64,000 nucleotides of DNA from an uncultured Ruminiclostridium sp. (GTDB taxonomy: Bacteria; Bacillota; Clostridia; Oscillospirales; Ruminococcaceae): contig CANQED010000012.1 of the NCBI GenBank assembly GCA_947594425.1, positions 1-64,000 of the forward strand, read 5' to 3'. Position 1 is the first letter of the stretch; each line of letters starts with the position of its first letter. Below are positions 28,356-62,579 of the stretch, in pieces. A model generated the notes under the pieces. The model saw only the letters and a program-made list of their open reading frames with translations, was not told the DNA's origin and searched no databases. The position numbers were made by a program, and so were the translations under genes.

Positions 28356-28627
28356 AACCGACTTCGAGTGAAGTCGGTTTTGTCTGTCGAAAAAGGTTTT
28401 AATAAAAAATATCATGCTAAAATATTCTGAAGAAAAAGACGGGGTTGCACTGCCGCCGTTCGGCGGACAGTTTACGCTCATTTCTCTTATTGCTGTCGCA
28501 ATCCGAGAAATAAGCTACGGGGTAAAAACATCAGGTTTTTGCCCCCATTTGAGATAAGTTTCAGCTTCGGAAAACACCGCAAGGTGTTTTTCGACAAGCT
28601 GAACCGACTTCGCGTGAAGTCGGTTTT
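28356..28627 (+). mobile_element. Terminator-associated repeat element, copy A
   Basis: A core of about 220 bp (28382-28601) starts near CTGTCGAAAAAGG and ends TTTTTCGACAAGCTG, so the ends are inverted repeats around TGTCGAAAAA. Both sides carry a 26 nt direct repeat of a terminator hairpin (28356-28381 and 28602-28627) with one mismatch. The core contains the hairpins GCCGCCGTTCGGCGG and AACACCGCAAGGTGTT. Copies B and C share the core ends and internal segments but are flanked by different terminators. It encodes no protein, so it would need an outside enzyme to move. The gap 28305-28658 holds nothing else. Confidence 0.6.
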
Positions 28628-28658
28628 TTATTTTCAAGGTCAAAGTGCAGCAATACAT

Positions 28659-29000
28659 CTACAGCATCGTTAAAAGCTGCTTTCGCTTTTTCTCGAACTC
28701 TTCTCCGCTTATAACACCCTGCTCATACAGCTCATTGTATTTGTCTATCTCGTTCGCGGCGTCGAAAGGCTTGCGTTCGTGACCTAATGCGTCTATAATG
28801 ACCTTTATCGCGTTCTTATTAGGCAAGCATGCTATATGTATAGTTGCAAACGGCCAAAGTAAAAATCCGTATAACCACCATACAGCAAAACGGTATCCCT
28901 TTACCTCGGCGATATTTGCCGGAATAATTGCCAATGCAGCGGCTATTGCTAAATATATAATGATATAAAGAAGATATTTCCAATCAAACACAAAAAGCAC
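28659..29000 (-). CDS. SHOCT-domain membrane protein
   Basis: A 113-residue protein with two membrane helices (WKYLLYIIIYLAIAAALAII and FAVWWLYGFLLWPFATIHIA) and a C-terminal SHOCT-type segment (EIDKYNELYEQGVISGEEFE, then KKRKQLL) of about 30 residues. SHOCT modules are short oligomerisation pieces found at the ends of many small proteins. Its own function is unknown. A strong sigma-A promoter (29044-29072) lies upstream, diverging from an XRE regulator gene whose likely operator overlaps this region. Confidence 0.8.
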   Translation of the reverse strand: MLFVFDWKYLLYIIIYLAIAAALAIIPANIAEVKGYRFAVWWLYGFLLWPFATIHIACLPNKNAIKVIIDALGHERKPFDAANEIDKYNELYEQGVISGEEFEKKRKQLLTML

Positions 29001-29043
29001 CTCTTGTTGTCGTTTTTAGTCTAATATGACTATTTCAATTTAT

Positions 29044-29072
29044 ATTATAATCTAATTACGCTTATTTGTCAA
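29044..29072 (-). promoter_or_regulatory. Sigma-A promoter of the SHOCT gene
   Basis: Minus-strand TTGACA (29067-29072), 17 bp, TATAAT (29044-29049). A near-palindrome TAGTC-N6-GACTA (29017-29032) lies just downstream and another TTTTAGTC half-site lies upstream near 29077-29084; both are candidate binding sites for the divergent XRE regulator. Confidence 0.8.
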
Positions 29073-29119
29073 GCTCTTTTAGTCATTTATGGTAATATTT
29101 TTTAAAAGGGGGTATTCTT

Positions 29120-29449
29120 ATTCCGTTTTATCAAAGAATAAGAGATCTGCGCGAGGACGCGGACAAAACGCAGTCGGATATCGCGGATTATCTGTGTACT
29201 ACAGCGCAATATTATGGGAAATACGAGAAAGGCGAAAGAGAGCTGCCGTTTTCGAGGGCGATAAAATTAGCCGAGTATTATGGTGTCAGTTTAGATTATA
29301 TCGCGGGAAGAACGAATGTAAAAATGATCCGCTCCGACACAACGCTTACCGAGGACGAGGCAAATATGCTTGAGATGTTTCACAACCTGTCCGAGCGAAA
29401 TAAAGGAAAGGTCGAGCTGTTTATCAGCCAGCTTTCGGGGAAAGTGTGA
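29120..29449 (+). CDS. XRE family regulator with ATT start codon
   Basis: The frame reads (I/M)PFYQRIRDLREDADKTQS, then DIADYLCTTAQYYGKYEKGE, a classic XRE helix-turn-helix (residues about 4-60), followed by YGVSLDYIAGRTN and a helical C-terminal part, 109 residues in all. No ATG, GTG or TTG exists at the proper place; relatives start M-x-x-Y-x-RIRDLRED. A strong AAAGGGGGT site precedes ATT codons at 29114 and 29120, so initiation at ATT is the simplest explanation, or the ATG has mutated. It diverges from the SHOCT gene and likely regulates it. Confidence 0.7.
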   Translation: MPFYQRIRDLREDADKTQSDIADYLCTTAQYYGKYEKGERELPFSRAIKLAEYYGVSLDYIAGRTNVKMIRSDTTLTEDEANMLEMFHNLSERNKGKVELFISQLSGKV

Positions 29450-29527
29450 TGTGATATAAAGGTTCACATAACACCCGCCTGCTGCGGCTGCGGAAGGCTT
29501 AAAGAGAGATATACGTTTAAGAACTAT

Positions 29528-29560
29528 AAAAGCTGCCGTAATCTATCGACAGCTTTTTTA
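29528..29560 (+). terminator. Rho-independent terminator
   Basis: Stem AAAAGCTG (29528-29535) and CAGCTTTT (29550-29557) followed by further Ts. It follows the XRE gene and faces the convergent ATPase gene, serving either strand. The 29450-29527 stretch shows no clear gene. Confidence 0.65.
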
Positions 29561-29561
29561 A

Positions 29562-30761
29562 TTATTCGTTTTCATTAAGCAGAAAATCCGAAAGCTTTAC
29601 GATTTTTACCCCGTCTACATTTCCCACAGCCAATTCGTCCATTGTCACTACATATTTTGGATAGTGGTCTTTTATCTCCAAGAGGTTAGCGATCTCTCTG
29701 TCCGAATTTTCGGGGAGACTGCGGCAGACCTGCACATAGAGCCGCTCGTCTCGGCGCACCGCCGTAAAATCTATCTCCTTTGTTTCGTTCTTTCCGATAT
29801 ACACCTCATAGCCGCGCCTTAACAGCTCAAAATATACTATATTTTCGAGCATAGCGCTGACGGATCTTGGGTCAAATCCCATTATGCAATATTTAAGCGA
29901 CGCGTCGGCGAGATAAAACTTCTCTTGGGTTTTAAGCACGGCCTTTCCCTGAAGGTCATACCTGCGGCAGCGATAGATTATGAACGCCTTTTCCAGCCAC
30001 TCGAGATAATTATATACTGCCTCTACCGAAAGAGAACGCCCCTCGCTCTTAATAAATTTTACGATAGAATTTGCGGAAAAGGTTTTACCGACGTTCTCCA
30101 CTACATATCTCACCACGCGGTCAAACAGGTCGTAATTAGTTATCTTGTGACGGCGCACAATGTCGTTGGTTATTACCGAGTGATATATCCCCTCGACTAT
30201 CTGATACGCTGTGCCGTCGTCAAAATCTCCGAGCGCGACCATGGGAAAACCGCCCGTTCTGATATAGTCGTTCATAAGCTCGTCTATAGATTTGCCGCTT
30301 GACTTTTTAAACTCGATATATTCCGCAAAAGACAGCGTAAATACGGGGATGAGTATATATCTGCCGCTTAAATAGGTGGATATCTCACTTGACATAAGCT
30401 TAGCATTAGAGCCCGTGACATATATATCCGCATTGTGATTTTCTAAAAGGCTGTTGACGGCTTTCTCCCAGCCCGATACCTCCTGCACCTCGTCAAGCAA
30501 AATATAATATTTGCCCGTGCGGGTCATCTGATTTTTTATCGAGTTATACATCTCCTTATCGTTAAGCTCGATATCGAGCTCTTCGGATGTGTACCGCACG
30601 GTTATTATATTCTCCTGCGCGACCCCGCTCTTGCAAAGGTCATCGTACAGCATATCAAGGATGGTGGATTTGCCGCAGCGGCGCACCCCCGCCAATATCT
30701 TTACAAGCGGGACGTCACGGTATTTTTTCAATAAATCGATATAATAAGGTCTCGGTATCAT
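29562..30761 (-). CDS. AAA_14/DUF4143 family ATPase
   Basis: A 399-residue protein with an N-terminal ATPase domain (Walker A AGVRRCGKST, Walker B YYILLDEVQE, sensor VTGSNAKL) and a C-terminal DUF4143 nuclease-like domain (about residues 200-360, with SANSIVKFIKSEGRSLSVEA and YFELLRRGYEVYIGKNETKE, then IDFTA). The GKNETKEIDF stretch recalls the PD-(D/E)xK nuclease fold. This is the common AAA_14 family, whose role is still unclear; some members have been linked to DNA or cell-envelope handling. I chose ATG at 30761 after AGGAGG. Its promoter overlaps a 41 bp tandem repeat array. Confidence 0.85.
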   Translation of the reverse strand: MIPRPYYIDLLKKYRDVPLVKILAGVRRCGKSTILDMLYDDLCKSGVAQENIITVRYTSEELDIELNDKEMYNSIKNQMTRTGKYYILLDEVQEVSGWEKAVNSLLENHNADIYVTGSNAKLMSSEISTYLSGRYILIPVFTLSFAEYIEFKKSSGKSIDELMNDYIRTGGFPMVALGDFDDGTAYQIVEGIYHSVITNDIVRRHKITNYDLFDRVVRYVVENVGKTFSANSIVKFIKSEGRSLSVEAVYNYLEWLEKAFIIYRCRRYDLQGKAVLKTQEKFYLADASLKYCIMGFDPRSVSAMLENIVYFELLRRGYEVYIGKNETKEIDFTAVRRDERLYVQVCRSLPENSDREIANLLEIKDHYPKYVVTMDELAVGNVDGVKIVKLSDFLLNENE

Positions 30762-30780
30762 ATTATCGCCTCCTATATAT

Positions 30781-30809
30781 AGTATACCGAAAAACTTTTG
30801 AAATATCAA
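30781..30809 (-). promoter_or_regulatory. Sigma-A-like promoter of the ATPase gene
   Basis: Minus-strand TTGATA (30804-30809), 17 bp, TATACT (30781-30786). The -35 box lies inside the first unit of the tandem repeat array, so protein bound to the repeats could block it. Confidence 0.7.
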
Positions 30810-30938
30810 TAGTTTTTACCGAAATTCCGAAAAAACTTTCATAAAATCAATAGTTTTTTCCGAAATTCCGAAAAAACTTTCCGAAAATCAGAAGTTTTTA
30901 TCGAAATTCCGAAAAAACTTTTCAAAATTATAAGGTTT
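30787..30938 (-). repeat. 41 bp tandem repeat array upstream of the ATPase
   Basis: Four units start at 30787, 30827, 30868 and 30909 (40, 41, 41 and a partial ~30 bp). Each begins CCGAAAAAACTTT and ends in a TCGAAATT-type stretch. Unit junctions form inverted repeats (AGTTTTT...AAAAACT). The array covers the -35 box of the ATPase promoter and resembles an operator array. Confidence 0.7.
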
Positions 30939-30999
30939 TCTCTCTCTGCATGGAGCGAATATTTTTGCTGCAAAAAAAATTAAATTTTTTTAAATCCAC

Positions 31000-31032
31000 T
31001 GTAACAAATCGGGCAAAAAAAGGATTATATAA
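31000..31032 (+). promoter_or_regulatory. Candidate ECF-type promoter 3
   Basis: TGTAACA (31000-31006), 15 bp, GGATTATATAATT (31022-31034). The -10-like block matches the ones at 17630 and 20686, while the -35-like block differs in the middle two bases. It lies about 50 bp before the ABC ATPase at 31080. Confidence 0.4.
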
Positions 31033-31079
31033 TTAGAAAAACTTTTTTGCTTTAATTTTATCTTTAAGGGAGGCAAAAA

Positions 31080-31928
31080 ATGCAGCTTTCAATTTCAAAC
31101 CTTACAAAGTCCTATCGGCACAAAAAAGCCCTCGACGGGTTTTCGCTGACGCTCGGCGAGGGGGTGTACGGCATACTCGGTCCTAACGGCGCGGGTAAGT
31201 CCACCCTCATAAATTCTCTTACCGGGATAATAAAGCCCGACAGCGGCAACATCTCGTTTAGCGGCAAGAGCGGCGGCGATTATCTTTCGCACCTCGGATT
31301 TTTGCCGCAAAATCAAGATTTTTACCACAATTTTACCGCGCGCGAACTTATACTGTATATGATGAAGCTTAAAGATTTCAAATGCCCCGACCCTAAGGGC
31401 TATGCCGACGAAATACTGAAAAAGGTCAATCTCTACGACGACCGCAATAAGAAAATAGGCGCGCATTCGGGCGGAATGAAACAGCGGCTGGGTATCGCTC
31501 AGGCTATCATAGGAGAACCCGAGGTGCTGATATTTGACGAGCCTACCGCGGGGCTTGACCCTAAGGAGCGTATTCGTTTTCGCAACGTTATCTCTTCTCT
31601 TGCAAACGATAAGATAGTTATTTTAGCGACCCATATCGTCACCGATATAGCCTTTATCGCCAAGACGGTGGTGCTTATGGACAAGGGTAAGATCATCCGC
31701 ACGGGAACGCAGGGAGAGCTCTGCGCCGAGCTTTGCGACAAGGTGTGGGAGCTTGACGCCGATTATGATACCGTTATGCGCCTTATGAAAGAAAGCCGCG
31801 TCAGCAACGTGTTAGGGATAGACGACTATTACCGCGTAAGAGTGATAGACGACGACAGACCCGACGGCGCGGTAAACGTACAGCCAAACCTTGAAGATGT
31901 CTGCATCTTCCATTTCGGGGAGATGTGA
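31080..31928 (+). CDS. ABC transporter ATP-binding protein
   Basis: A 282-residue ATPase with Walker A GPNGAGKST, Q-loop LPQNQDFYHNFTA, signature HSGGMKQRL, Walker B VLIFDEP and H-loop ATHIV. It is paralogous to the ATPase at 25226 (same NFTA and SGGMKQR wording). The last 60 residues extend past the usual core. It starts with ATG at 31080 after AAGGGAGG. With the two following permease genes it forms an ABC-2 exporter; the candidate ECF-type promoter upstream could place it under the sigma factor at 19368. Confidence 0.9.
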   Translation: MQLSISNLTKSYRHKKALDGFSLTLGEGVYGILGPNGAGKSTLINSLTGIIKPDSGNISFSGKSGGDYLSHLGFLPQNQDFYHNFTARELILYMMKLKDFKCPDPKGYADEILKKVNLYDDRNKKIGAHSGGMKQRLGIAQAIIGEPEVLIFDEPTAGLDPKERIRFRNVISSLANDKIVILATHIVTDIAFIAKTVVLMDKGKIIRTGTQGELCAELCDKVWELDADYDTVMRLMKESRVSNVLGIDDYYRVRVIDDDRPDGAVNVQPNLEDVCIFHFGEM

Positions 31929-31929
31929 T

Positions 31930-33069
31930 ATGATACTTTACGAGCTGAAAAAATACATACTTAAACCCTCGGTATTTGTCTGCTTAATAATATTTGCCGT
32001 TGTGAACTTTGTAAAATTTTTCGAGCTGTACTACAATTTCGGAGGAGGAAGAGGTCAGCTTGCGGATAACAGCGCCGGTGCGGGCGTTATCGAGCTGTAT
32101 GAAAAATACGGCGGGACTATCACTGATGAAAAGATAGCGGGGCTGAAAGCCGACCTTGACTTTGCCGAAAAGAGCTTTGCCGAAAACGGCATTACCGAGG
32201 AAGCAAGCGACAAGTTTTACACCGGGTACGCTTACGGCGACAAAAACATGATAAGCGCTATCATCAAAAAATACCAAAGTGCGATACTTTATGAAAACAC
32301 CGCGAACGAACTATCGCAAAAGGCGGACGATAACGCGAGATTTTTCGCGGGCAAGAATGATTATGAACAGCGCAAAAACGAGCTTATCCGCGACACCTTC
32401 GGCGGGCGGTATATCGGACAATGCGTGAGAAGCAACGGGTGGGAAACGCTGTTTGACTTTAAGTTTTCCGCTATACTCACCATGCTGCTTATCGCGCTTA
32501 TGCTCTCCCCGATATTTGCGGGAGAACGCGCGGACGGCTTTGACCGACTTATAATATCGTCGGGAAAGCGCGGCGCGGCGATACGCTCAAAGCTGCTCAC
32601 GGCGGGGATCGTCGCGTTTACGGTCACGCTGATATTCTTTATTTTAGATGTGAGCTATACCTTTACGGTGTACGGGCTCAGCTGCTTTGACGCGCCGCTT
32701 TATGCGATATATCCTAACGCCCCGCTAAACGTCACTTTGCTCGGAGCGTTGGCAACGGCGTTTATTATGAGGCTTGCGGCTATGCTGTTTATGGCGGCGT
32801 GTGTTGTGCTTATCTCCTCGTTTTGCAAAAACACCGGCGCGGCGCTTATCATATCGGTGCTGTTCGGCGCGGCGCTTGTCGTGCTGACCGAGCTTTTGCC
32901 GAGCGCGTTCAACCCGTTAGAGCTTGTATATTCGAGCGAGTTTTTCTCAAATTTTGACACGGTAGATCTTTTCGGCTTGCCGTGCTTACAGCTGTTTGCC
33001 TCGATAGGCTTTACGCTGCTGCTTACCTTAGCCGCGGGAGCGGTTACGGCGATAAGGGGGCTTAGATAA
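31930..33069 (+). CDS. ABC-2 type permease
   Basis: A 379-residue membrane protein: N-terminal helix (FVCLIIFAVVNFVKFFELYY), a large extracellular loop of about 110 residues (about 38-150), then five or six helices (FSAILTMLLIALMLSPIFAG and others) in the ABC-2 pattern. I chose ATG 31930, which starts one base after the ATPase stop, over a start 13 codons upstream. Its stop overlaps the next gene's ATG (TAATG). It pairs with the larger permease encoded downstream, so the transporter is probably a heterodimer of two permeases with one ATPase. Confidence 0.85.
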   Translation: MILYELKKYILKPSVFVCLIIFAVVNFVKFFELYYNFGGGRGQLADNSAGAGVIELYEKYGGTITDEKIAGLKADLDFAEKSFAENGITEEASDKFYTGYAYGDKNMISAIIKKYQSAILYENTANELSQKADDNARFFAGKNDYEQRKNELIRDTFGGRYIGQCVRSNGWETLFDFKFSAILTMLLIALMLSPIFAGERADGFDRLIISSGKRGAAIRSKLLTAGIVAFTVTLIFFILDVSYTFTVYGLSCFDAPLYAIYPNAPLNVTLLGALATAFIMRLAAMLFMAACVVLISSFCKNTGAALIISVLFGAALVVLTELLPSAFNPLELVYSSEFFSNFDTVDLFGLPCLQLFASIGFTLLLTLAAGAVTAIRGLR

Positions 33070-36000
33070 TGGTACTTTCAGAGCTTAAAAAGCTGTTTAT
33101 AAAGCAGCACGTTTTGCTATTAATTATAATTATTTCGATAGTAAAGGTGATCACCTCGCTTAATATGTTCGCTCCCGATTATAACGGGCTTTCTCCCGAA
33201 CAGCAGAAAAAATATCTCGCATATATAGACGAGCTCGGCGGAAAGCTCGACGAAAGCAAGGAGGAAAAAATCGTCCTGCTTTACGCCGAATATCAGTCCG
33301 CCGCCGAAATGTTAAAGCAGGTGCATGATAAATACGTCGCGGGCGAATATGCCACCTCGGAGGAATATTTTGCCGCTATGCGGGAAATACCCGAGATAGC
33401 GGAGGACGCCGAGGCTATAGAAAAGCTGTACGCCGCTTATGAAAAGATAAGCGAAAACGAAAGCGGTATGCTGCTCGCCTCGGACGCGCCGATAATGTCG
33501 GTCGGCATGGAGTACCCGCTTATGCTGCTTATCTGTTACATATCCGCCGCCGCGTTCTACTACGAGCGCAAAATGGATCCGCTGTCGCTGACATCCGTAA
33601 AGGGCAGATCCGCCTGCGCGGGAAGATCGTTCTCGCTGTTTTGCGCGGTGGGGCTTGCCTGTGTGATATTCTTTATAACGGAATTTTGCGCGTTGTGCGC
33701 CGAGATAGGCACAGACAGCCTTTTCGCCTCGGTGACCAGCCTTGAGAGCTTTGGCAGGTCAAATTACCCCGATATGAATATACTCACCTGCTTTTGCCTA
33801 ACACATCTGCTTAAATTTATCGGCTGTCTGCTGACTGCGGCGACCGGCGCGGTGATAATGAGGGCGGGAAAGAATTTTGCGGCGGCGATATTTACCCCCG
33901 CGGCGATACACTTTATATGGGCGTACCTCTTTTCACAAAAGGATATCGAGTTCTATTCCCCCTATTCGCTTATGCAGGGCGGGGTGTTCTTTCAAGGCGA
34001 CGCTGAATACCGCACCCATCTTGCTATTCCGTCAGGGCAGACTATAGCGCTCGCCGCAGTGTCGATAGTGCTTATCGCGGCGGCGTGCATATATCTTACA
34101 AATTCATACAAAAACCGCCGTATGCGTATCGGCGGCGCGGCGATAATTACTGCGGCTGTTATGCTGCTCGGCGGCTGTTCGGCAGCTTCAGGCGGCGATG
34201 AATATGCAAATATCGCCTATGATGAAGCCTACGGCGGCGGGTATTATTTTAAGTGCCAAGACATATTAGCCGACGCGCCCGTATCAGACAGCTTCAGCAA
34301 TACGAATGAAGACGATAAATATATTATCGGCACTAAAATAGAGCAGTACGACGAATACGGGAAAATCGTCTGCGATCAGATAAACCGCGAGTTGTTTACC
34401 AACGGCGGTACCATACAGGATATATCAGTCTGCGGCGGGTATCTTTATTATCTTTTCTACGACGGCGATGGCAGCAAGATAGGCAGGATAAGCCTTGACG
34501 ATTATTCCGACGACGTAATTTATTCGGGCGGGTACTATCCCGACTTGACGGCTTATTTTGATTTGTTTTTGTTCTATGAATCAAGCGACGGTAAGCTGCC
34601 CAAGCCGAATAACTTTATTGCGGCTGAAAGCGGGGTCATCTTCCACACCTCTAATGAAAACGGCGAGGCGCTTTACAGCTTAGACCCGTCAAGCGGCAGG
34701 ATCTCTTATCTGCTTGAGGATATAATGATACCGGCTTACGCGTTAGCGGGCGGAAAGCTGTACTATATAAATTCCGACGGACATCTTACGTTATTTTCCG
34801 ACAATAAAAAGACTAACGTGTGCGACGGTCAGTATAAGGCTATGTGTGCGTATGACGGAAAGCTGTATCTTGCGGGCGGACAGGGTATGTTCTGCTATGA
34901 GATAAACAGCGGCACGCTCGAAAAAATATCGGATATTACCGAGATCGTCGACCTTAGGATAGCAAACGATGTGCTTAAATATAAAATTTACGGCACGTCG
35001 CAGTGGGAAGAATTAAGCCTCGGCTCCGACGCGGCAGACAGTACCCCAAACGCCACGGAAACGAGCACCGTTCCCGCCCCAGATGAGGAAGTGCCCGACA
35101 GCTCCGATATGAGCGGCGACGAGCCCGCCGCACCCGGCAGCATTTACGATTACGGTGTCATAGGCTACATAGACAAGGAGCAAAAGCACCTGCTGATGCA
35201 AAGGCGGCTTCCCACGGACGGGGATCCAACGATGTATGAATTTGCGGTATACGACACCGAGAGCAAAAAAATAATAGGCACCCTCGAAAACGACTATGAT
35301 GAATACTGCTATTATGATGATTATATATCAATATCCTCGTTAAACTTAAACGGTCCCCAATCAGAAACCACATTCGCTTTATACGATTCGTCATTAAATA
35401 AAATAAAGATGATCGAGGGAGATGTATGGACGCTTCCGATATACATTGACGACAAGGATATATTTATCGGCCTGTGCCCCGAAAAAAACGACGACGGAGA
35501 AAGCGTTTTTAAGTTGGCAAGATACGATAAGGACGGTAAGCTGATAGATTATATCAAAGACTGCGATACGTACGTTCCGGTGAGCATTGTATCGGTAAAC
35601 GATAAGCTGATATGTGAGTCGCAGCACAGCGAATACGGCAAAGGTGAGTTTGTCGAAGTAATGAATTATGACGGCAGCGATTACCGAAGATGGCAGATAT
35701 TTGACAGCACCGAATATCATTACGTCGGACAACTCGGTAAATACGTCTACTTTTTGCCGAACCTGATAAAAAACCCCAAGGACGGCCCCGGAAAGGTGTA
35801 TTTTTACGATACCGAGAAAGATGATCTGATTTATGTGGACACCGTGACAGAAGAAGAGGCGGGAAGTTCTACGGCCACTCCCGACGGGAAGTATCTTGTC
35901 ACCTGTTATGTGGAGGAAAAGGACAGAATAGCTCAGCAGGAATTTGTACGTTTTTACGATATTGAAAAGAATGAGCTTGTTTACACCTACAACAGAGGAA

Positions 36001-36128: not shown

Positions 36129-37301
36129 ATGAAAGCGAGAAGAATTATCGCCGTGACAGCGGCGGCGCTTTGCCTTACGGCTTGCTCGGACGGGAGAGAG
36201 ATCTCCGACGTACCGAGCGCGACGAGTTACGAGCAGGCTCAGCCGTCAGAGATATCAGAGCCCGACAGCTCAATCACCTCGACAGGCATAACACCCGACG
36301 GTACGGATGCGGGCATGGACGAGCCTACCCCGTCAGGAAGCATTTACAGCTATACTATCATAGGTTACATAGACAAGGAGCAAAAGCACCTGCTGATGAG
36401 AAGACGGCTACCCTCGGACGACGGTTCATCGATGTATGAATTTGCGGTTTACGACACCGAGAGCAAAAAAATAATAGGCACGCTTGAAAACGACATTGAG
36501 AGATGTTGCTATTATGATGATTATATATCGCTGCCCTCGTTCAACGATCCCCAATCAGAAACCACATTCGCTTTATACGATTCGTCATTAAATAAAATAA
36601 AGATGATCGAGGGAGATGTATGGGAGCTTCCGCTATACCTTGACGACGAGGATATATTTATCGGCGGATATTATGTAAAGACCGCCGACGGGAAAGGCGA
36701 TTATAAGTGGGCAAGATATGATACCGACGGCAAGCTCATAGACTTTTTCGATGACGAAAATAAAGAATTATATCCTGCGCCCCCGCCTTTGGCGGTAAAC
36801 GGAAAGCTTATATTTCAATCTACGGACGAAACTAACGAGAGCGGAGAATTTGTCGAGATCATGAATTATGACGGGAGCGATTACAGAATATGGCAGATAT
36901 ATGACGAAATTGAGTATCACAAAGTCGGTCGGCTCGGCAAATACGTCTACTTTTTGCCCGATAATATCAGTGGGCATGAGGGGATACCCGGAAAGGCGTA
37001 TTTTTACGATACCGAGAAAGACGATCTGATATATGTAGATACCGTCACAGAGCATGAGGTGGCAAATTCAACGGTCAGCCCCGACGGAAAGTATCTTGTC
37101 ACCAATTTTACGGAATTAAAAGACAAAATTCCGGTGCGAACATTTATACGCTTTTACGATATAGAAAAGAACGAGCTTGTATACACCTATACTAAAGAAG
37201 ATGTGCAATACGGCTGTATGATAAATGCGTATTTTGACGGTGTGCAGGTGAGATCCCTCGACGGAAATTATTTTCTGAAATATGAGGATTTGGGGCTGTA
37301 A
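36129..37301 (+). CDS. Propeller-like lipoprotein, duplicate of the fusion's C-terminus
   Basis: A 390-residue lipoprotein with lipobox LTAC (Cys about residue 19), a short Ser/Pro/Thr linker, and a propeller-like body. From about residue 75 on (IGYIDKEQKHLLMRRRLP, YEFAVYDTESKKIIGTLEND) it is closely related to residues 690-1014 of the upstream fusion, and the two share a perfectly identical 76 bp stretch (35354-35429 and 36548-36623). This is a recent duplication or gene conversion. It follows the fusion gene by 15 bp with AAAGGAGG. Likely an extracytoplasmic partner of the same ABC transporter. Confidence 0.8.
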   Translation: MKARRIIAVTAAALCLTACSDGREISDVPSATSYEQAQPSEISEPDSSITSTGITPDGTDAGMDEPTPSGSIYSYTIIGYIDKEQKHLLMRRRLPSDDGSSMYEFAVYDTESKKIIGTLENDIERCCYYDDYISLPSFNDPQSETTFALYDSSLNKIKMIEGDVWELPLYLDDEDIFIGGYYVKTADGKGDYKWARYDTDGKLIDFFDDENKELYPAPPPLAVNGKLIFQSTDETNESGEFVEIMNYDGSDYRIWQIYDEIEYHKVGRLGKYVYFLPDNISGHEGIPGKAYFYDTEKDDLIYVDTVTEHEVANSTVSPDGKYLVTNFTELKDKIPVRTFIRFYDIEKNELVYTYTKEDVQYGCMINAYFDGVQVRSLDGNYFLKYEDLGL

Positions 37302-38512: not shown

Positions 38513-38575
38513 CCCCTTTTTGCCAGACTGTACGGCTTATACCAAAAGCATAGTCTGACAAAAGGGGCGTTTTTA
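38513..38575 (+). terminator. Rho-independent terminator of the ABC operon
   Basis: Stem GCCCCTTTT (38513-38521) with AAAAGGGGC (38560-38568), an extended inner stem around GACTG/CAGTC-type bases, then GTTTTTA. The 3' half is repeated at 38859-38877 on the far side of the repeat element. Confidence 0.7.
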
Positions 38576-38877
38576 TATGCCCCTCAGTCTGTAGAAAAAG
38601 GTCGATATAAAGCGGAAGGAAAGAGTTGAGTTTATGCTGCCGCCGTACGGCGGACAGCTTACGCTCATTTCTCAAATTGCTTTCTATCGCAATTCGAGAA
38701 ATAAGCTACGGGGAAAACCATCAGGGTTTTCACCCTCAAGTTTAGATAAAAGCCGCTCGCAGAGCGGCAAAATCGAGGAAACCCGCTACAGCGGGTGGTC
38801 GATTTTTTGTCAGCTTGTCGGAAAATCCGACCCATAGGGAGGGTTTTTCGACAAGCTGAGGGGCGTTTTTATATGCC
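38563..38877 (+). mobile_element. Terminator-associated repeat element, copy B
   Basis: A core of about 277 bp (38582-38858) begins CCTCAGTCTGTAGAAAAAGG and ends TTTTTCGACAAGCTG, with inverted ends around TGTCGAAAAA (one mismatch on the left). It is flanked by an exact 19 nt direct repeat of the terminator tail (38563-38581 and 38859-38877). Inside are several hairpins (GCCGCCGTACGGCGG, GCCGCTCGCAGAGCGGC, GGAAACCCGCTACAGCGGG). It shares the CGAGAAATAAGCTACGGGG segment with copy A. Together with the terminator it fills 38451-38932. Confidence 0.6.
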
Positions 38878-38932
38878 GCTTTACTCAAAATGTCAATTCA
38901 TCACCGTAAATGTACATTTCACGCCAAATTTA

Positions 38933-56667: not shown

Positions 56668-56682
56668 TCTTTGCGTAAAAGT

Positions 56683-56759: not shown

Positions 56760-56810
56760 TCATTCATACATTGTCCTTCGTTTCGCCCAAATTGGCGGAA
56801 GCTGTCAAAA

Positions 56811-57038
56811 TTACTTGTTCTTCTTCTTAAGAACGATGCCGCTAACGGTAAGAGCGCCTGCTGCAAGAGCGGTAGGAACTACGGTGAGAATAACACCGGT
56901 ACCGGGGTTGCTGTCGCCTACGGTCGCCTGGCTGTTTGCGCCATCAGAAGCGCCGACCTCAACGTCTGCTGCAAATGCAGCGGTGGAGCAAGCCGCAACG
57001 GCTGCTATGCAAGCTATAGCTGCTAAAATCTTTTTCAT
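56811..57038 (-). CDS. Miniature NPGTG-anchored surface protein
   Basis: Only 75 residues: a signal peptide (MKKILAAIACIAAVAACSTA, cleavage likely after AFA), about 25 residues of mature sequence, then the sorting motif NPGTG, a hydrophobic helix and a KKKNK tail. After sorting only about 25-30 residues would remain exposed on the cell wall. The motif matches the NPSTG of the giant surface protein at 11230, so both probably use the same sortase, which is not in the window. It has a good GGAGGATATA site and its own promoter (57093-57121). Confidence 0.8.
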   Translation of the reverse strand: MKKILAAIACIAAVAACSTAAFAADVEVGASDGANSQATVGDSNPGTGVILTVVPTALAAGALTVSGIVLKKKNK

Positions 57039-57092
57039 CGTTATATCCTCCTTATATTGTCCTTCATATGTAAATTCGTTTTACATCTAAGC

Positions 57093-57121
57093 AGTCTATA
57101 TAAACCGTAAAAAAGTTTCAA
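57093..57121 (-). promoter_or_regulatory. Promoter of the miniature surface protein
   Basis: Minus-strand TTGAAA (57116-57121), 17 bp, TAGACT (57093-57098). A small hairpin (ATGTAAA/TTTACAT, 57068-57086) follows in the 5' leader. Confidence 0.65.
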
Positions 57122-57209
57122 CTTTTTTATTTTTCTTTTTTCTTATCCGACCGCTTACATTGCCGTAGTCGGGCGGAGATATTAAAAAGTTTCAGAATAA
57201 TAAAAATTT

Positions 57210-57252
57210 TTTAAAAAAAATAAAAGCGTTAGAGATTTTAGCTCCAACGCTT
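57210..57252 (-). terminator. Terminator of the PH-domain/GtrA operon
   Basis: Minus-strand stem AAGCGTT-x-GAG (57242-57252 region) with its complement near 57224-57234, followed by a long T-run (complement of 57202-57223). Confidence 0.75.
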
Positions 57253-57256
57253 AAAA

Positions 57257-57793
57257 CTATTCCGTCTTTTTCTTTTTGCTCCTGAAAATAAACAGCTTGC
57301 TGAAAATATAATTGAGCACAAGTACCACTATATTGGACAGGACCTTTATGCAAAATTCGTATATCCCGTTTCCGACCGCGGGGAGGTCTACGAGCAGATA
57401 CATTATTATAAGGTCTACAAATAATGTGAACAGCCTTGCCGCGTAAAAGGACAGCGCCTGCATAAATATCTTGCCCGCGCCGCTTACCTTGCTCTTAAAT
57501 ACCCATATGCGATTGGTGATATAAGCAAAGGTCACCGACACTATCCAGCTTATTATATTCGGCAACACCGTCGACGAGTCCCCGTCCGAGAACGTCAGGT
57601 GATACATCCACTTAAATATCCACGGCGCGCTCTCTTCGGTGGGAAAAACAGTGCGCACAATAAAGTACGTCCCTATAGAGACAAGCGTCGTCAGCGCCCC
57701 GAAAAACACATAGGATATTATCTCGCGGTATTTTCTGTACAATTCGCCCCACTGCTTAGGGTGGAGCGCCATAGTGACTATCTCTTTAATCAT
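57257..57793 (-). CDS. GtrA-like membrane protein
   Basis: A 178-residue protein with four membrane helices in the GtrA pattern: EIISYVFFGALTTLVSIGTY near the start and YITNRIWVFKSK in the middle, both characteristic. GtrA proteins help flip or attach sugar-lipid intermediates for cell-surface glycosylation. It overlaps the upstream PH-domain gene by 8 bp and is its translationally coupled partner. The C-terminus is Lys-rich (SKKKKTE). The ATG at 57793 is used here; an alternative at 57772 would lose seven residues. Confidence 0.85.
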   Translation of the reverse strand: MIKEIVTMALHPKQWGELYRKYREIISYVFFGALTTLVSIGTYFIVRTVFPTEESAPWIFKWMYHLTFSDGDSSTVLPNIISWIVSVTFAYITNRIWVFKSKVSGAGKIFMQALSFYAARLFTLFVDLIIMYLLVDLPAVGNGIYEFCIKVLSNIVVLVLNYIFSKLFIFRSKKKKTE

Positions 57794-58238
57794 TATCCAT
57801 CATATCGGGTATGCCGTCGCCGTCGGAGTCAACGTCAAGATCCGCTCCGCCCGAGCCGAGCGCCGCGCCGACCATATCTCTGCCGCGCACCATATACTTG
57901 TCGTACTGCGCCTTAACGGCGGCGTCGAGTATACGCTTGACCTCGCGGGGGTGCCTTATCGCGGTTATCTGCTTTTCGGGTGTGTCGCGGTCGCGCGCGA
58001 TAACGATTATAGTCCCGCAGCCCACTATACGCTGACCGAAAGGAAAACGCATATTCTTATCGGTTATCTTGTACAGGTCTATCTCGTCCTCTTTGATATT
58101 GAGCAGACCTACTTTAGTATAGAGCGAGGTCTCGGTCAGGATATACCGAGTAAGCGATATCGGCAGACCGCAAATGCACTTCTTGCCTGTCCAGAGCACC
58201 TCTCCGTAATTTCTTTTAAGCTTCTCCATATTAGCCAT
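57786..58238 (-). CDS. PH-domain-like protein with Asp-rich tail
   Basis: A 150-residue protein. Residues about 5-110 look like a bacterial PH domain (YGEVLWTGKKCICGLPISLT near the start, then RYILTETSLYTKVGLLNIKE; VIARDRDTPEKQITAIRHPR later). The last 25 residues have DVDSDGDGIPDMMDND, a run of Asp-x-Asp-Gly resembling a Ca-binding repeat, as in dockerins or thrombospondin type 3 repeats. With no signal peptide it is probably cytoplasmic. I chose ATG at 58238 after AAAGGAAAT; a longer start would add 41 residues. Function unknown. Confidence 0.7.
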   Translation of the reverse strand: MANMEKLKRNYGEVLWTGKKCICGLPISLTRYILTETSLYTKVGLLNIKEDEIDLYKITDKNMRFPFGQRIVGCGTIIVIARDRDTPEKQITAIRHPREVKRILDAAVKAQYDKYMVRGRDMVGAALGSGGADLDVDSDGDGIPDMMDND

Positions 58239-58251
58239 AATTATTTCCTTT

Positions 58252-58509
58252 CTACCACCGCGGGGTCTCGTGCGGACACTGGCGAAAAGCGTACGCCGCC
58301 CGTATCTCGACAAAGCAGCCGCACTTTGCGCACATTCCGTTGATAAGCTCGTCGCAGCCAAGGCACTTGTCCAGCCTTTCGCGATAGGCGGCGCTGTCGG
58401 TCCTTTTCTCCTCGGGGATAAGCGCGATATATTCCTTTACGGCGGCATAGGCTTCGGCGCTAAGCTTCTCAGTGAGGCACCTTTTACACAAGCGCGAGCT
58501 CAATTCCAT
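58252..58509 (-). CDS. DUF6171-like zinc-binding protein
   Basis: An 85-residue protein with two Cys pairs: CKRC near the start and CLGCDELINGMCAKCGCF in the second half, plus CPHE at the end; a compact zinc-ribbon-like protein. The pattern fits DUF6171 proteins of Clostridia. The central part is helical (EKRTDSAAYRERLDK). It has its own minus-strand promoter (TTGATT, 17 bp, TACAAT) and begins an operon with the PH-domain and GtrA genes. Confidence 0.75.
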   Translation of the reverse strand: MELSSRLCKRCLTEKLSAEAYAAVKEYIALIPEEKRTDSAAYRERLDKCLGCDELINGMCAKCGCFVEIRAAYAFRQCPHETPRW

Positions 58510-58530
58510 ATCGCCGCCCCCTTTTAGGAT

Positions 58531-58626
58531 ATTGTACCATACGGCGGTAAATAAATCAAGAGAAAGTGCAAAATTTATTATATTTGCCCGCCCGCTATTG
58601 ATTTTTCTATTGCTTTGGGTTATACT
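58531..58626. promoter_or_regulatory. Divergent promoters
   Basis: Minus strand: TTGATT (58554-58559), 17 bp, TACAAT (58531-58536) for the DUF6171 gene. Plus strand: TTGATT (58598-58603), 17 bp, TATACT (58621-58626) for the HAD phosphatase-rimM-trmD operon. Confidence 0.7.
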
Positions 58627-58650
58627 TTTATATATAAAGGAGAAGTGACT

Positions 58651-59343
58651 ATGGAAAAGACATACGACGCGGTGATATTCGACCTCGACGGCACACTCTT
58701 AAACACTATCGACGACCTCGCCGACAGCGCTAACGCCGTGCTTAGCGGGCTCGGATTTGCTACCCACAGCATAGAAGAATATAAATATTTTGTCGGAAAC
58801 GGCATACCTAAGCTTATCGAGCGCTGCCTGCCGCCCGACCGACAGGATATGCACGAAACGGCGCTTAAGCTTTTTACCGAGCGGTACTCACTCCACAGCC
58901 GTGACAAGACCGCGCCCTACCCGGGCATAAAAGAGGTCATCGCCGAGCTAAAGCAAAGCGGTATCCCTACGGGGGTAATCACCAACAAGTCCCACCCGAT
59001 AGCGTTAGATGTGGTAAAATATTATTTCGGTGACGCGTTCGACTATGTGAGAGGTCTCGACGATACAATAAAGGCAAAGCCCGCGCCCGACGGCGCGTTA
59101 TCGGTGGCGAGCGCGCTTAAGGTAGAGCCCGACAGGGTGCTCTACGCGGGCGACACAAAGACCGATATGCTCACCGCGCAAAACGCGGGGTTCTCGCCCT
59201 GCGGGGTATTGTGGGGCTTTCGCCTAAGAGAAGAGCTCGAGCAAAACGGCGCGAGGTACATAATTTCCCGCCCCGAGCAAATTTTGGACATAATTTTCGG
59301 CAAAGGGGCAGAATATGAGAAAACAATATCTGGAAGTCGCTAA
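58651..59343 (+). CDS. HAD family phosphatase (PGP-like)
   Basis: A 230-residue HAD phosphatase: motif I VIFDLDGTLLNT, motif II VITNKSH, motif III Lys in KAKPAPDG, motif IV YAGDTKTDM. The size and cap pattern resemble phosphoglycolate phosphatase (Gph-like). The native 3' end probably overlapped the rimM start; in this genome the last residues (EKTISGSR) come from a partial rimM copy inserted by duplication. In the copy-B arrangement the frame would end KGAEYEKAVS. I chose ATG 58651 after AAGGAGAAG. Confidence 0.85.
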   Translation: MEKTYDAVIFDLDGTLLNTIDDLADSANAVLSGLGFATHSIEEYKYFVGNGIPKLIERCLPPDRQDMHETALKLFTERYSLHSRDKTAPYPGIKEVIAELKQSGIPTGVITNKSHPIALDVVKYYFGDAFDYVRGLDDTIKAKPAPDGALSVASALKVEPDRVLYAGDTKTDMLTAQNAGFSPCGVLWGFRLREELEQNGARYIISRPEQILDIIFGKGAEYEKTISGSR

Positions 59344-59443
59344 AATAGTCGCCCCGCAGGGGTTTTTCGAGACTTTTCGGCAAAGGGGCAGAATATGAGA
59401 AAGCAGTATCTTGAAGTCGCAAAGATAGTCGCTCCGCAGGGGT
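59294..59443 (+). repeat. Partial duplication of the rimM start (80 bp period)
   Basis: Copy A (59294-59363) and copy B (59374-59443) both contain the end of the HAD gene and the first ~17 codons of rimM. In the coding part six base differences are seen, and all six fall at third codon positions without changing the protein. Copy A is followed by unrelated TTTCGAGAC and no longer leads into rimM. It reads as the remnant of a second, diverged rimM start. Confidence 0.85.
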
Positions 59444-59910
59444 TGAGGGGTGAGCTCCGCGTGCAGTATTACTGCGACGGCCCCGACTTTTTCAAAAAGC
59501 TCAATAGGCTGTTTCTCGGAAAGGACAAGACCGAACTGCCGCTCTTATCCTCGCGCGCTAACGGCAATCTCGCGGTGCTTAAATTGCAGGGCATAGACGA
59601 CCGCGAACAGGTGACCCCGCTTGTCGGCAAAATGCTGTATATCTTTCGCGAGGATGTGCAGCTTGAGCAGGGCGTGTATTTTCTGCAAGACCTTATCGGT
59701 CTTACGGTAAAGGACGCGGACAGCGGAGAGGTATACGGCACCGTCGACGATATATATCAAAACGGCGCGGCGGACGTATACTCTATAAGGACAGCGGACG
59801 GGCGGCAGCTTATGTTTCCCGCGATACCCGAGGTACTTATCAGCCGCGACATAGACGCGGGGGAGATACTGATACGCCCGCTGAAAGGGCTTTTTGACGA
59901 TGAGAATTGA
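59395..59910 (+). CDS. rimM: Ribosome maturation factor
   Basis: A 171-residue RimM: N-terminal RimM domain starting YLEVAKIVAPQGLRGELRVQ, and a C-terminal PRC-barrel domain (DLIGLTVKDADSGEVYGTVD onwards, ending in RPLKGLFDDEN). It assists assembly of the 30S head near S19 and S13. It precedes trmD with an 11 bp overlap, the usual rimM-trmD pairing. The start ATG at 59395 belongs to copy B of the duplication; the first copy at 59315 reads only 27 codons. The usual downstream partner rplS is not present here. Confidence 0.95.
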   Translation: MRKQYLEVAKIVAPQGLRGELRVQYYCDGPDFFKKLNRLFLGKDKTELPLLSSRANGNLAVLKLQGIDDREQVTPLVGKMLYIFREDVQLEQGVYFLQDLIGLTVKDADSGEVYGTVDDIYQNGAADVYSIRTADGRQLMFPAIPEVLISRDIDAGEILIRPLKGLFDDEN

Positions 59911-60940
59911 CATAGCGACGCTTTTCCCGGATATGTGCCGCTCCTTTTTGTCCGAGAGCGTGATAGGCAGGGCGATAAAGGGCGGACACATCGACATACG
60001 CTGCCACAATATCCGCGACTATGCGGGAAATAAGCACAACCGCGTAGACGACAAGCCCTACGGCGGCGGCACGGGTATGCTTATGCAGGCGCAGCCGATA
60101 TACGACTGTATCACCGCTATAAGAGAAGACACCGCCCCCGACCGCAGGGTGATATATATGTCCCCGCAGGGCAGGCCGCTAAGTCAGCAGACGGTAAAAG
60201 AGCTTGCCGACAGCGACGGATTTATTATACTGTGCGGGCATTATGAGGGGGTAGACTGCCGCGTGCTCGAGGAACTAAAGGCCGAGGAGATATCGGTCGG
60301 GGATTTTGTCGTGACGGGGGGCGAATTGCCCGCGCTAATGCTCGCGGACGCGGCGGCGCGGCTTATCCCCGGGGTATTGCCGAACGACGAGGCGTACGAG
60401 CAGGACAGCCACTTTGACAGGCTGCTCGAGTACCCGCAGTATTCACGCCCCGAGGTGTGGAGGGGCAGGGCGGTGCCGCAGGTGCTCTTATCGGGGGATC
60501 ATAAACTTGTAAAGCAATGGCAGGACGAGATGAAGCTCGCCGTCACTTTAGCAAAGCGCCCCGACCTGCTTGTCGACCGCAGAAATAACGGAAAGCCGCT
60601 GTCAAAATACGTGCGCTTTGCGGTAAGAGACGAGGGACTGCCCGAGGATATATTCGCCGCGCTGACAATGCTTTCCAAAAATAAGGCACTTAATTCCAAA
60701 GAAAAAAAAGTATTTGTGAAAATTGACAAATATTTCAATGAGTTTCTTCCCTTTCCGAAAGAGATAAGCGGCGAGAAATTATTCACTTACTACAAAACCG
60801 AAAACAGGGATATTGTCGATATGTGTTTATCGCTCTGCGACATTTTCACGGCGCACGAAATCAAAATTGATATAATTTATTCCGAAATTGTAGGCAAAAT
60901 TGTCCGCGAGGACGGGTACAGAGCCTTTTGCAAAGAATGA
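59900..60940 (+). CDS. trmD: tRNA (guanine37-N1)-methyltransferase, C-terminally extended
   Basis: A 346-residue TrmD. Residues 1 to about 235 are the normal SPOUT enzyme: MRIDIATLFPDM, DDKPYGGGTGMLMQ, YMSPQGRPL, CGHYEGVDCR and SVGDFVVTGGELPAL; it uses SAM to methylate G37 of tRNAs. TrmD is normally about 240-250 residues. Here about 105 extra residues (from about KYVRFAVRDEGLPEDIFAAL to the end) form a predicted helical extension, with LTMLSKNKALNSKEKKVFVK and EKLFTYYKTENRDIVDMCLS. This part is not recognised. The ATG at 59900 overlaps the rimM stop. Confidence 0.9.
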   Translation: MRIDIATLFPDMCRSFLSESVIGRAIKGGHIDIRCHNIRDYAGNKHNRVDDKPYGGGTGMLMQAQPIYDCITAIREDTAPDRRVIYMSPQGRPLSQQTVKELADSDGFIILCGHYEGVDCRVLEELKAEEISVGDFVVTGGELPALMLADAAARLIPGVLPNDEAYEQDSHFDRLLEYPQYSRPEVWRGRAVPQVLLSGDHKLVKQWQDEMKLAVTLAKRPDLLVDRRNNGKPLSKYVRFAVRDEGLPEDIFAALTMLSKNKALNSKEKKVFVKIDKYFNEFLPFPKEISGEKLFTYYKTENRDIVDMCLSLCDIFTAHEIKIDIIYSEIVGKIVREDGYRAFCKE

Positions 60941-61116
60941 CCGCCAAAGAAAAATTTAACCTCTGATAATGTAACGGTTGAAAAAATCTGTGTATGTTAA
61001 ATATTTATCAATTGTTTTCTTTGTGCAATTATCACAAAAATCGGGGAAAAAGGCAATCGGTATTAAGCAAATGTGAAGAATAGTTGCCGAAAAAATGACA
61101 AAAAGTAAAAACGCTG

Positions 61117-61145
61117 TTGACGAACCGCCTTATTATCGCTATACT
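61117..61145 (+). promoter_or_regulatory. Sigma-A promoter of the HPr gene
   Basis: TTGACG (61117-61122), 17 bp, TATACT (61140-61145), about 80 bp before the ATG. Nothing else is seen in the 61000 region except AT-rich DNA. Confidence 0.75.
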
Positions 61146-61223
61146 ATTAACTGTAGGGCGCTTTACGACTGTATACGCCTTACTGATTAGGAAAGAAAAA
61201 GCAAATCGAGGGAGGTTTTTAAG

Positions 61224-61487
61224 ATGTTTGTCAAAGAAGTTAGCGTGAAGAACCAGGTAGGTCTGCACGCAAGACCGGCAACCTTCTTCATCCAGAAAGC
61301 CAACGAATATAAATCATCTATCTGGGTTGAGAAGGAAGAACGCAGAGTAAATGCTAAAAGTCTTTTAGGCATTCTTTCTCTCGGGATCGTTGGCGGTACT
61401 CCTATCCGCATAATCGCCGACGGCACAGACGAGCAGCTGGCTGTAGACGGACTGGTCAAGCTCGTAGAAAGCGGATTTACCGAATAA
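61224..61487 (+). CDS. ptsH: HPr-like phosphocarrier
   Basis: An 87-residue HPr. The active His15 lies in VGLHARPA, and Ser46 in AKSLLGILSLG is the site phosphorylated by HPr kinase in Gram-positive bacteria. Size and order are normal for HPr. It passes phosphate from enzyme I to PTS transporters and, as P-Ser-HPr, helps carbon catabolite repression. It is a lone gene with its own promoter and strong GGAGG site, as often in Clostridia. Confidence 0.9.
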   Translation: MFVKEVSVKNQVGLHARPATFFIQKANEYKSSIWVEKEERRVNAKSLLGILSLGIVGGTPIRIIADGTDEQLAVDGLVKLVESGFTE

Positions 61488-61506
61488 TTGAATATCTGAC
61501 AACATG

Positions 61507-61529
61507 GCCGCCGTATATATATCGGCGGC
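61507..61529 (+). terminator. Hairpin after HPr
   Basis: Perfect stem GCCGCCG/CGGCGGC (61507-61513, 61523-61529) followed by TTTGG. The T-run is short; a second hairpin at 61596-61629 may help. Confidence 0.55.
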
Positions 61530-61595
61530 TTTGGACTGTCGAACAACTCCGCGATACATTGCTAAAGCGATAGTACCGCGTATTTCTATAATGCT

Positions 61596-61629
61596 CCCGC
61601 TCGGTAATTTAGATCTGTGCGGGTTTTTT
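61596..61629 (+). terminator. Terminator-like hairpin before the lipoprotein gene
   Basis: CCCGC (61596-61600) and GCGGG (61619-61623) followed by six Ts. It lies 14 bp before the lipoprotein ATG and could end the HPr transcript. Confidence 0.55.
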
Positions 61630-61642
61630 GCTATGAAAGGAT

Positions 61643-62362
61643 ATGGTGAAATTGCACAAAAAAGCGCTCGCGTCTTTAGCGGCGGGAATACTGCTGTTAA
61701 GCGGCTGCTCGCCGGATTATTCTTCAATAGAGGGCTATAACGCCGTATCCTCCGCGCGCACGGCGTACTCCGAGCTGTACAGCGCGCACCTCACGGTCAC
61801 CGACCTTGACAGCGGGATAATGCAGCAGGAGCTTAGCTTTCGCTATGACGAGGCGGACAGGCTGATATACAGCTATTACGGCACCGACGGCGATACCGTC
61901 TACCGCGAGTACCACGACGGCTATTCTTACAGCTACACCGACGCCGACGGCAATTGGGTGACGATAAAGGAGGGCGAGGACGGCTATCGCGGCTATAACC
62001 GCATAGCTAAGATGTCTATGACCGACGCGGGCATGATATTCTTAAAGCCCGAGAGCATAACCCAGAGCACCGCCGAGCAGGACGGCAGCGACCTTGTGAT
62101 AACCGCCGTCTACCGCGTAGAGGACCTCGGCGAGCTAATCAAAAATCAGCTCGGCGAGAGCGGCACCCTCACCGAATTTAAGGTGATATACACCATAAAT
62201 ACCGCGGGACAGTGCACTAAGGTCGAGCAGATAGGCAAAATGGACAGCGGCGGCGAGGTCAAAAATATCGACTACCTGCTTAAAATCGACAGTATGAACG
62301 ACGTAGGCAAGGTGGACGACCCGAGAGAAGATAGCGATACCTCAGACAGTGACAATTCGTAA
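61643..62362 (+). CDS. Lipoprotein of unknown function
   Basis: A 239-residue lipoprotein with lipobox LLSGC (Cys about residue 22). The body is beta-rich with repeated Tyr/Asp/Gly strands (YSYTDADGNWVTIKEGEDGY) and ends in an Asp/Ser-rich tail (DPREDSDTSDSDNS). This two-sheet style is seen in several lipoproteins of unknown role in Clostridia. AAAGGAT precedes the ATG at 61643. No partner is apparent; the gene ends directly at the repeat element's terminator. Confidence 0.75.
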   Translation: MVKLHKKALASLAAGILLLSGCSPDYSSIEGYNAVSSARTAYSELYSAHLTVTDLDSGIMQQELSFRYDEADRLIYSYYGTDGDTVYREYHDGYSYSYTDADGNWVTIKEGEDGYRGYNRIAKMSMTDAGMIFLKPESITQSTAEQDGSDLVITAVYRVEDLGELIKNQLGESGTLTEFKVIYTINTAGQCTKVEQIGKMDSGGEVKNIDYLLKIDSMNDVGKVDDPREDSDTSDSDNS

Positions 62363-62364
62363 AC

Positions 62365-62579
62365 AAAGGCTTGGCGGGATACCGTCAAGCCTTTTTGTCT
62401 GTCGAAAAAGGTTTTAATAAAAAATATCAAGCTAAAATAATCGGAAGAAAAAGGGGGTATGGGGGGTAAAAACATCAGGTTTTTGCCCCCATTTGAGATA
62501 AGTTTCAGCTTCGGAAAACACCGCAAGGTGTTTTTCGACAAGCTGAAAGGCTTGGCGTGATACCGTCAAGCCTTTTTGT
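62365..62579 (+). mobile_element. Terminator-associated repeat element, copy C
   Basis: The core (about 147 bp, 62399-62545) has the same ends as copies A and B (CTGTCGAAAAAGG start, CGACAAGCTG end) and is a deleted form of copy A lacking about 75-100 internal bases. It is flanked by a 34 nt direct repeat of the lipoprotein gene's terminator (62365-62398 and 62546-62579), one mismatch. The terminator reads AAAGGCTTG with its complement CAAGCCTTTTT and so appears twice. It fills most of 62363-62744; a promoter follows. Confidence 0.6.

Follow-up and report, generated by a model that had tools for sequence, protein, structure and literature searches.

Background

Insertion sequences (IS) of the IS1182 family include IS1272, which targets DNA hairpins, often transcription terminators, and is reported to remove all or part of the hairpin without target duplication (PMC5678879, PMC4923244). 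The present analysis concerns three short non-coding elements, copies A, B and C, which are miniature inverted-repeat transposable elements (MITEs). They occupy a 64,000-nt stretch, hereafter the window, of contig CANQED010000012.1 from an uncultured Ruminiclostridium sp. (GCA_947594425.1). Each copy lies between two near-identical hairpins, and comparison with related loci supported the view that they share in a broader habit of IS1182 elements, namely duplication of an entire hairpin target.

IS1272 and TnSha1 of staphylococci resemble the present case in having an IS1182-family transposase and hairpin targets without common sequence (PMC5678879, PMC4923244); several of these targets were confirmed as terminators in Furi 2016 (PMC4923244). 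They differ in outcome, because the published elements delete or replace all or part of the hairpin and leave no duplication, whereas sites of the window type duplicate the whole hairpin. Wan 2017 did draw duplication of an entire stem-loop, as a hypothetical route (Fig 13, pathway b) in which joining takes place at the 5' feet (PMC5678879), and the present sites match that pathway. Both papers also credit to Siguier 2015 the statement that palindromes serve as targets for some members of the IS1182 family (PMC4923244, PMC5678879).

Among non-autonomous elements, MITEPye1 (MITEPye1 / ISPye18) of Paracoccus yeei is similar in being short (159 bp), non-coding and intergenic and in folding into long stem-loops, with IS1182-type ends of 18 bp; it differs in its 4 bp direct repeats, and no hairpin duplication is described in the available text (PMC11578231). 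The RUP, SPRITE and BOX elements of pneumococcus are likewise short, interspersed and intergenic, and some are terminator-like (a likeness of description), while hairpin target duplication is not mentioned in the part of the source available (PMC10969869). A search of the open-access literature, with ISfinder and most subscription papers outside its range, found no account of IS1182-type elements that duplicate an entire hairpin. In reference tables the direct repeats of IS1182 members vary widely in length, and ISfinder may therefore already contain such cases.

Copies A, B and C in the window

The original prediction had placed three non-coding elements with inverted ends and flanking direct repeats in this stretch, and all three were recovered where it had put them. 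Copy A (28382–28602, forward strand) has its left end, CTGTCGAAAAAGG, at 28384 and its right end, TTTTTCGACAAGCTGA, finishing at 28602. It is flanked by a terminator hairpin with a 10-pair stem (28356–28381) and by a second copy (28602–28627), which is terminator-like by forward-strand score; the two are identical at 25 of 26 positions. Copy B (38585–38859, forward strand) has the left end CAGTCTGTAGAAAAAGG and the right end TTTTTCGACAAGCTGA, and lies between repeats at 38563–38584 and 38859–38880. Copy C (62399–62546, forward strand) lies between terminator hairpins at 62365–62398 and 62546–62579 (33/34 identical). The predicted repeat lengths of 26 and 34 nt stand for A and C, as does their description as local terminators. 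For B, the predicted 19-nt repeat is better taken as 22 nt (21/22 identical, 19 nt exact), and by eye it coincides in part with the 3' portion of a longer terminator.

Copies A and C differ by an internal segment while keeping their ends, as predicted; they have in common a 61-nt block (95% identity) and an 85-nt block (100%), and represent a long and a short form of one subfamily. That all three form a single family holds for their common ends but needed correction for B. This copy represents a second subfamily, whose interior is distinct but which has the ends and one internal module in common with A. This module (28450–28540 in A, forward strand; 38637–38730 in B; 86% identity) belongs to the long forms of both subfamilies and is absent from C. 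The motif CTGTCGAAAAA, allowing one mismatch, occurred seven times in the window against 1.87 expected, a number reached in none of 100 shuffles; one of the seven matches fell outside the elements. Predicted folding of the cores was far better than that of dinucleotide shuffles (z = -6.4, -10.1 and -5.4 for A, B and C), bearing out the internal hairpins noted originally. An Rfam scan of the window at the gathering threshold returned one tRNA and nothing else.

Two further observations concern the same sequences. The hairpin-rich module sits at the same position in the long forms of both subfamilies and also occurs elsewhere in the source genome without element ends (L034, G000:C11:47641); it behaves as if inserted or deleted as a unit. 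At 7986–8011 of the window there is a hairpin 92% identical to the target hairpin of copy A, and no element ends were found near it.

Distribution across the source genome

The source genome is a 2.6 Mb draft in 43 contigs, with the window on contig 12. Searches with A and B gave at least 32 and at least 45 matching pieces respectively (each scored 40 first-look candidates), and these matches, together with the right-end pattern, were reduced to 36 examined places. At 16 of these a near-identical hairpin was present on both sides of the element, a lower bound, as the script misplaced the ends at some of the other places. Elements at the duplicated sites were 146–306 nt long. The hairpin was different at each of the 16 sites, so that the flanking repeat is not one sequence common to every copy, the outcome that the original prediction had named as fatal to target duplication. 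The elements are therefore short, bounded by inverted ends, associated with target duplication and present at 36 places, and contain no transposase gene (coding potential being judged from the list of open reading frames (ORFs)), as is characteristic of MITEs.

These results support the original proposal of MITE-like elements that insert at terminators and duplicate the target, with one qualification. The targets were mostly terminators, but the duplicated unit is the stem-loop itself; at one site (L232), inspected by eye, the duplicated hairpin sits in a 5' leader just past a promoter-like sequence, and the target is therefore the hairpin rather than the terminator as such. Across the 16 pairs, the two hairpin copies differed at 17 of 84 loop positions and at 4 of 278 stem positions (Fisher p = 1e-8, positions inside one loop not being independent). 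This is read as retention of intact stems through selection or through template-switch repair, between which the test does not distinguish. The same pattern is consistent with the idea that such insertion offers a safe niche, where the terminator is kept on both sides and neighbouring genes may keep their stop signal.

One copy had lost its right end (L019). At another place (L220, G000:C6:104290-104597), a second end, TCAGTCTGTCGAAAAA, was present alongside, with its own terminator beyond a second hairpin; the arrangement suggests that this copy landed in the inner hairpin of an older element. Two candidates were set aside: a match to TGTCGAAAAAGG (L005) lay inside an apparent gene and was not an element copy, and the resemblance of TGTCGAA in the ends to a Spo0A box was taken as chance, the left ends of subfamily B reading mostly TGTAGAA.

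An IS1182-family relative with matching ends

The original prediction had raised the prospect of a transposase gene with the same ends, and one with ends of this kind was identified. A search for the end sequences (at most one mismatch) across 197 genomes of the same family gave matches in 71, and led to a 1.56-kb element in Gemmiger sp. An194 (L097, with a twin record, L139). Its ends are TCAGCTTGTAGAAAAACC and TCAGCCTGTCGAAAAAGG, and identical copies of a hairpin, duplicated over at least 37 nt, flank it on both sides. It encodes a 482-aa protein that scored 389.3 bits against the IS1182 model NF033551 (cut-off 270), with Pfam matches to DDE_Tnp_1_6, DUF772 and DDE_Tnp_1; the protein is an IS1182-family transposase. 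Compared by eye, the MITE ends GWCTGTCGAAAAAGG and TCAGCTTGTCGAAAAAC match the IS ends TCAGCCTGTCGAAAAAGG and TCAGCTTGTAGAAAAACC, in agreement with terminal repeats of the IS1182 family. A congener of the source organism holds a decayed IS with a right end, TTTTTCGACAAGCTGA, identical to that of the MITEs.

A transposase search at E 1e-20 gave a match in 16 of the 197 family genomes, and pieces in 9 of 71 genomes of the genus. An active IS was sought within the genus, where the two candidates (L308 and L316) showed no matching ends. An IS1182-type transposase acting in trans is very probably the route by which the window-type copies moved, and their present-day mobility is conjectural, no such gene having been found in the source draft at E 1e-20.

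Two observations were made on the ends themselves. In two genomes of the same family (G029, G166) there are palindromes of about 34 nt, perfect or near-perfect (L099 at 586–619; also L100, L101 and L110), which consist of two right ends in a head-to-head arrangement (TCAGCTTGTCGAAAAA-NN-TTTTTCGACAAGCTGA) and lie next to other hairpins; these may represent the most reduced derivatives of the element, or ends that now serve as terminators. In two further relatives (G137, G179), many of the listed matches to IS ends fell within about 150 nt of a contig start, and the IS therefore probably breaks these assemblies.

Hairpin duplication among IS1182-type loci

A scan of named genomes identified 281 loci encoding a relative of the transposase, of which the best 80 were taken. 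Ten were left out as partial matches or at contig edges (L148, L175, L183, L185, L187, L190, L193, L211, L213, L217), and two more for insufficient flank (L144, L146), leaving 68. Among these, 40 had a duplication of at least 15 nt, 11 had two different hairpins, one had none, 13 had ends that were not recognised and 3 lacked a flank; L149 (mismatched by eye) and L171 (duplicated by eye) were counted with the unrecognised ends. Every one of the 40 duplications, 39 of them distinct because L160 repeats the site of L159 and was counted once, contains a stem-loop. When left and right flanks were shuffled between loci, only 2 of 1560 pairs reached 15 nt.

Together with the 16 MITE sites, this gave 55 distinct sites, among which an asymmetric one (L205) was retained. 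Duplications were 18–38 nt long (median 23), and their centre lay no more than 1 nt from the palindrome's dyad axis at 48 of 55 sites and no more than 2 nt from it at 53 (mean offset -0.14, sd 0.89). The arms were exactly symmetric within the duplication at 37 of the 39 IS sites. In a sliding test, no shifted window equalled the observed symmetry at 40 of the 55 sites, comprising 35 of 39 IS sites and 5 of 16 MITE sites.

Plasmids were sampled by hand, 20 copies being picked from 332 matching records. Nine had a hairpin duplication of 16–26 nt (16 nt in one), including copies from Salinivibrio, Providencia, Aminobacter, Rhizobium and Cetobacterium, so that duplications on plasmids extend to Gammaproteobacteria, Alphaproteobacteria and one member of the Fusobacteria. 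Three copies stayed unclassified (L251, L252, L253), and in four the hairpin was one-sided or unclear (L250, L320, and L257 and L328, which are the same site). The IS1182-like element ISEfa7 of Enterococcus faecium plasmids, a name taken from annotation, is similar in that a copy so annotated (L248) has a 20-nt hairpin duplication; a copy with the same ends, annotated as a transposase only (L256), has one of 23 nt and an empty site. It differs from the window MITEs in being autonomous. Other sampled Enterococcus copies were without matching hairpins (L249, L250, L257, L320, L328, L329). No paper linking ISEfa7 with IS1182 was found in the open-access literature.

Empty sites

If the flanking hairpins arise by duplication, uninterrupted sites should have a single hairpin, as the original prediction supposed of terminators, and this was observed for three IS insertions on plasmids and at one MITE site. 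The first instance concerned L256, on an Enterococcus pELF plasmid, where both flanks and one hairpin aligned with other plasmids along the full 323 nt, with 100% identity for two plasmids. Of the 40 records that matched, 28 covered at least 80% of the query. The Rhizobium site had a best record of 99.6% identity over 284 nt (26 of 74 records covering at least 80%), and the Aminobacter site one of 99.6% over 285 nt (4 of 8). A search for an uninterrupted counterpart of the Cetobacterium copy found none.

For the MITEs, a query of 6230 nt represented 16 of the 36 sites, and 20 congener stretches were compared, covering 8 sites. Both flanks could be aligned at the rpmE site alone (L014), and the MITE evidence on empty sites rests on that one site. 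Nine congener stretches, a part of those matching, were compared there; seven were syntenic and the element was present in none. The script found exactly one hairpin in six of these seven. In the seventh (L293) it found none at its threshold, and two weaker hairpins were seen by eye. The congener hairpins differ in sequence from that of L014, so that this comparison gives the number and place of hairpins and not letter-for-letter ancestry.

These comparisons bear on two other explanations. The first is IS1272-like replacement, with the flanking hairpins being something else. Although the family and the kind of target are the same in the published accounts (PMC5678879, PMC4923244), the hairpin was double in the filled site and single in the empty one at all three plasmid insertions, which is not the pattern of replacement. 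It is refuted for those sites and extremely improbable in general. The second is insertion between two old neighbouring terminators, for instance those of convergent genes, without any duplication. The loci with different hairpins on each side (11 of 68) and the pair of hairpins seen by eye in L293 would both suit such an origin. However, at 40 IS and 16 MITE sites the two repeats match exactly or almost exactly, and the empty sites hold one hairpin. Furthermore, for two mismatched copies on complete plasmids, both flanks were found together in none of 5 and none of 8 matching records. This origin is refuted where an empty counterpart is known for an IS insertion, which is the case at three sites, and is otherwise very improbable.

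Loci flanked by different hairpins

Several observations weigh against whole-hairpin duplication by IS1182-type elements as a general account. The sliding test failed at 15 sites (4 IS sites and 11 of the 16 MITE sites), and at the failing MITE sites the called repeat often ran into a T-tract on one side. Duplication length was moderately correlated with full palindrome length (r = 0.42), because the A- and T-tracts of terminators often extend the palindrome past the cuts; the cuts are therefore symmetric, yet not always at the outermost pair. Different hairpins were present on the two sides of the 11 IS loci and, by eye, of four plasmid copies out of 20 (L249, L254, L322, L329), while one IS locus of 68 (L181) had no hairpin. 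In the source genome, the hairpins differed between the two sides of L220 and of L052, a hairpin stood on just one side of L224 and of L021, and most remaining places were fragments or had ends that the script did not place reliably; no IS1182-type transposase gene was found in the 43-contig draft at E 1e-20. Finally, IS1272 is published without duplication (PMC5678879, PMC4923244), and the IS1182-type elements MITEPye1 and ISCaa15 are reported with 4 bp repeats (PMC11578231, PMC3196728).

At the 11 mismatched loci each element end still abutted a hairpin, against a background of 0.143 per side at 1400 random positions. In relatives of the left flank of a mismatched copy, the sequence diverged from the hairpin onward. 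Mismatched pairs are probably explained by later recombination among copies, by deletion of adjacent DNA or by misjoined draft assemblies. They might instead represent a second genuine outcome of transposition, for example where each end attacks a different hairpin and an adjacent deletion or inversion results. The consistent presence of a hairpin at each end suits this explanation, as does the occurrence of at least two cases on complete plasmids (L254, L322). Conversely, all nine copies listed from the complete Chakrabartyella chromosome had matching hairpins (eight by script and L171 by eye), and most of the 11 loci lie on contigs of draft or metagenome assemblies, in which repeats lead to misjoining. 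A second outcome is thus possible, if doubtful, and secondary rearrangement or misassembly is preferred.

Proposed mechanism of target duplication

A DDE transposase normally produces a duplication of near-fixed length, which mirrors the distance between its two active sites. Here, length varied from 18 to 38 nt across the 55 sites (and was 16 nt in one plasmid copy) and followed the axis of the palindrome, from which it is argued that the shape of the target sets the geometry. In the proposed mechanism, the transposase would recognise inverted ends of the kind (T)CAGNCTGTNGANAAA and insert into DNA palindromes capable of folding into a stem-loop, most of which are intrinsic terminators. The element would be joined symmetrically, through both of its 3' ends, to the two 5' feet of the target hairpin, and repair of the two resulting single-stranded hairpins would duplicate the whole stem-loop on both sides. 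It would therefore be the target, and not the protein alone, that decides how long the duplication is.

Symmetry about the dyad axis is what the sequences display, and family, ends, hairpin duplication and single-hairpin empty sites can likewise be read from them; attachment of both element ends to the 5' feet of an extruded hairpin is put forward as the mechanism that best suits these features, with an extruded cruciform or hairpin as the form presumably recognised and with chemistry to match. We consider it highly likely that A, B, C and their kin are IS1182-type MITEs that duplicate a hairpin target by symmetric joining of this kind. A broader proposition is favoured with less assurance: that IS1182 transposases across Firmicutes, Fusobacteria and Proteobacteria are structure-measuring enzymes which join their ends at the feet of extruded hairpins, duplicating the whole stem-loop over a length that is a property of the target, with IS1272-type replacement as the other outcome of the same chemistry.

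The same origin and duplication could also be obtained if the palindrome were read as duplex DNA, by a dimer on two symmetric half-sites with variable spacing, which would cut at A-tract edges without extrusion. The base directly outside the duplication was A in 91% of 78 boundary readings, which agrees with cutting of this kind, although the two readings at each site are not independent, the site being a palindrome. An A- or T-tract adjoined 54 of 55 hairpins (a count without shuffled control), and such tracts were present on both sides at 36 of 55. Against this, a rigid dimer would be hard pressed to span so many lengths, from 18 to 38 nt, and unrelated stems, and the published IS1272 targets are also without common sequence (PMC5678879). 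Duplex recognition is considered unlikely on balance, and the duplicated hairpins suggest a transposase for which DNA shape governs both the choice and the measurement of the target.

The finding connects the hairpin-replacing IS1272 with a duplication outcome that had earlier been drawn as a mere possibility (PMC5678879). The mechanism thereby becomes testable, by means of a single cloned element offered a series of designed hairpins.

Other repeats in the window

Two repeats were observed elsewhere in the window. A direct duplication (35094–35989 and 36294–37189, with a spacing of about 1200 nt) extends across two adjacent large ORFs, and two tandem repeats of 162 nt (12110–12433) lie within an ORF of 1698 aa.

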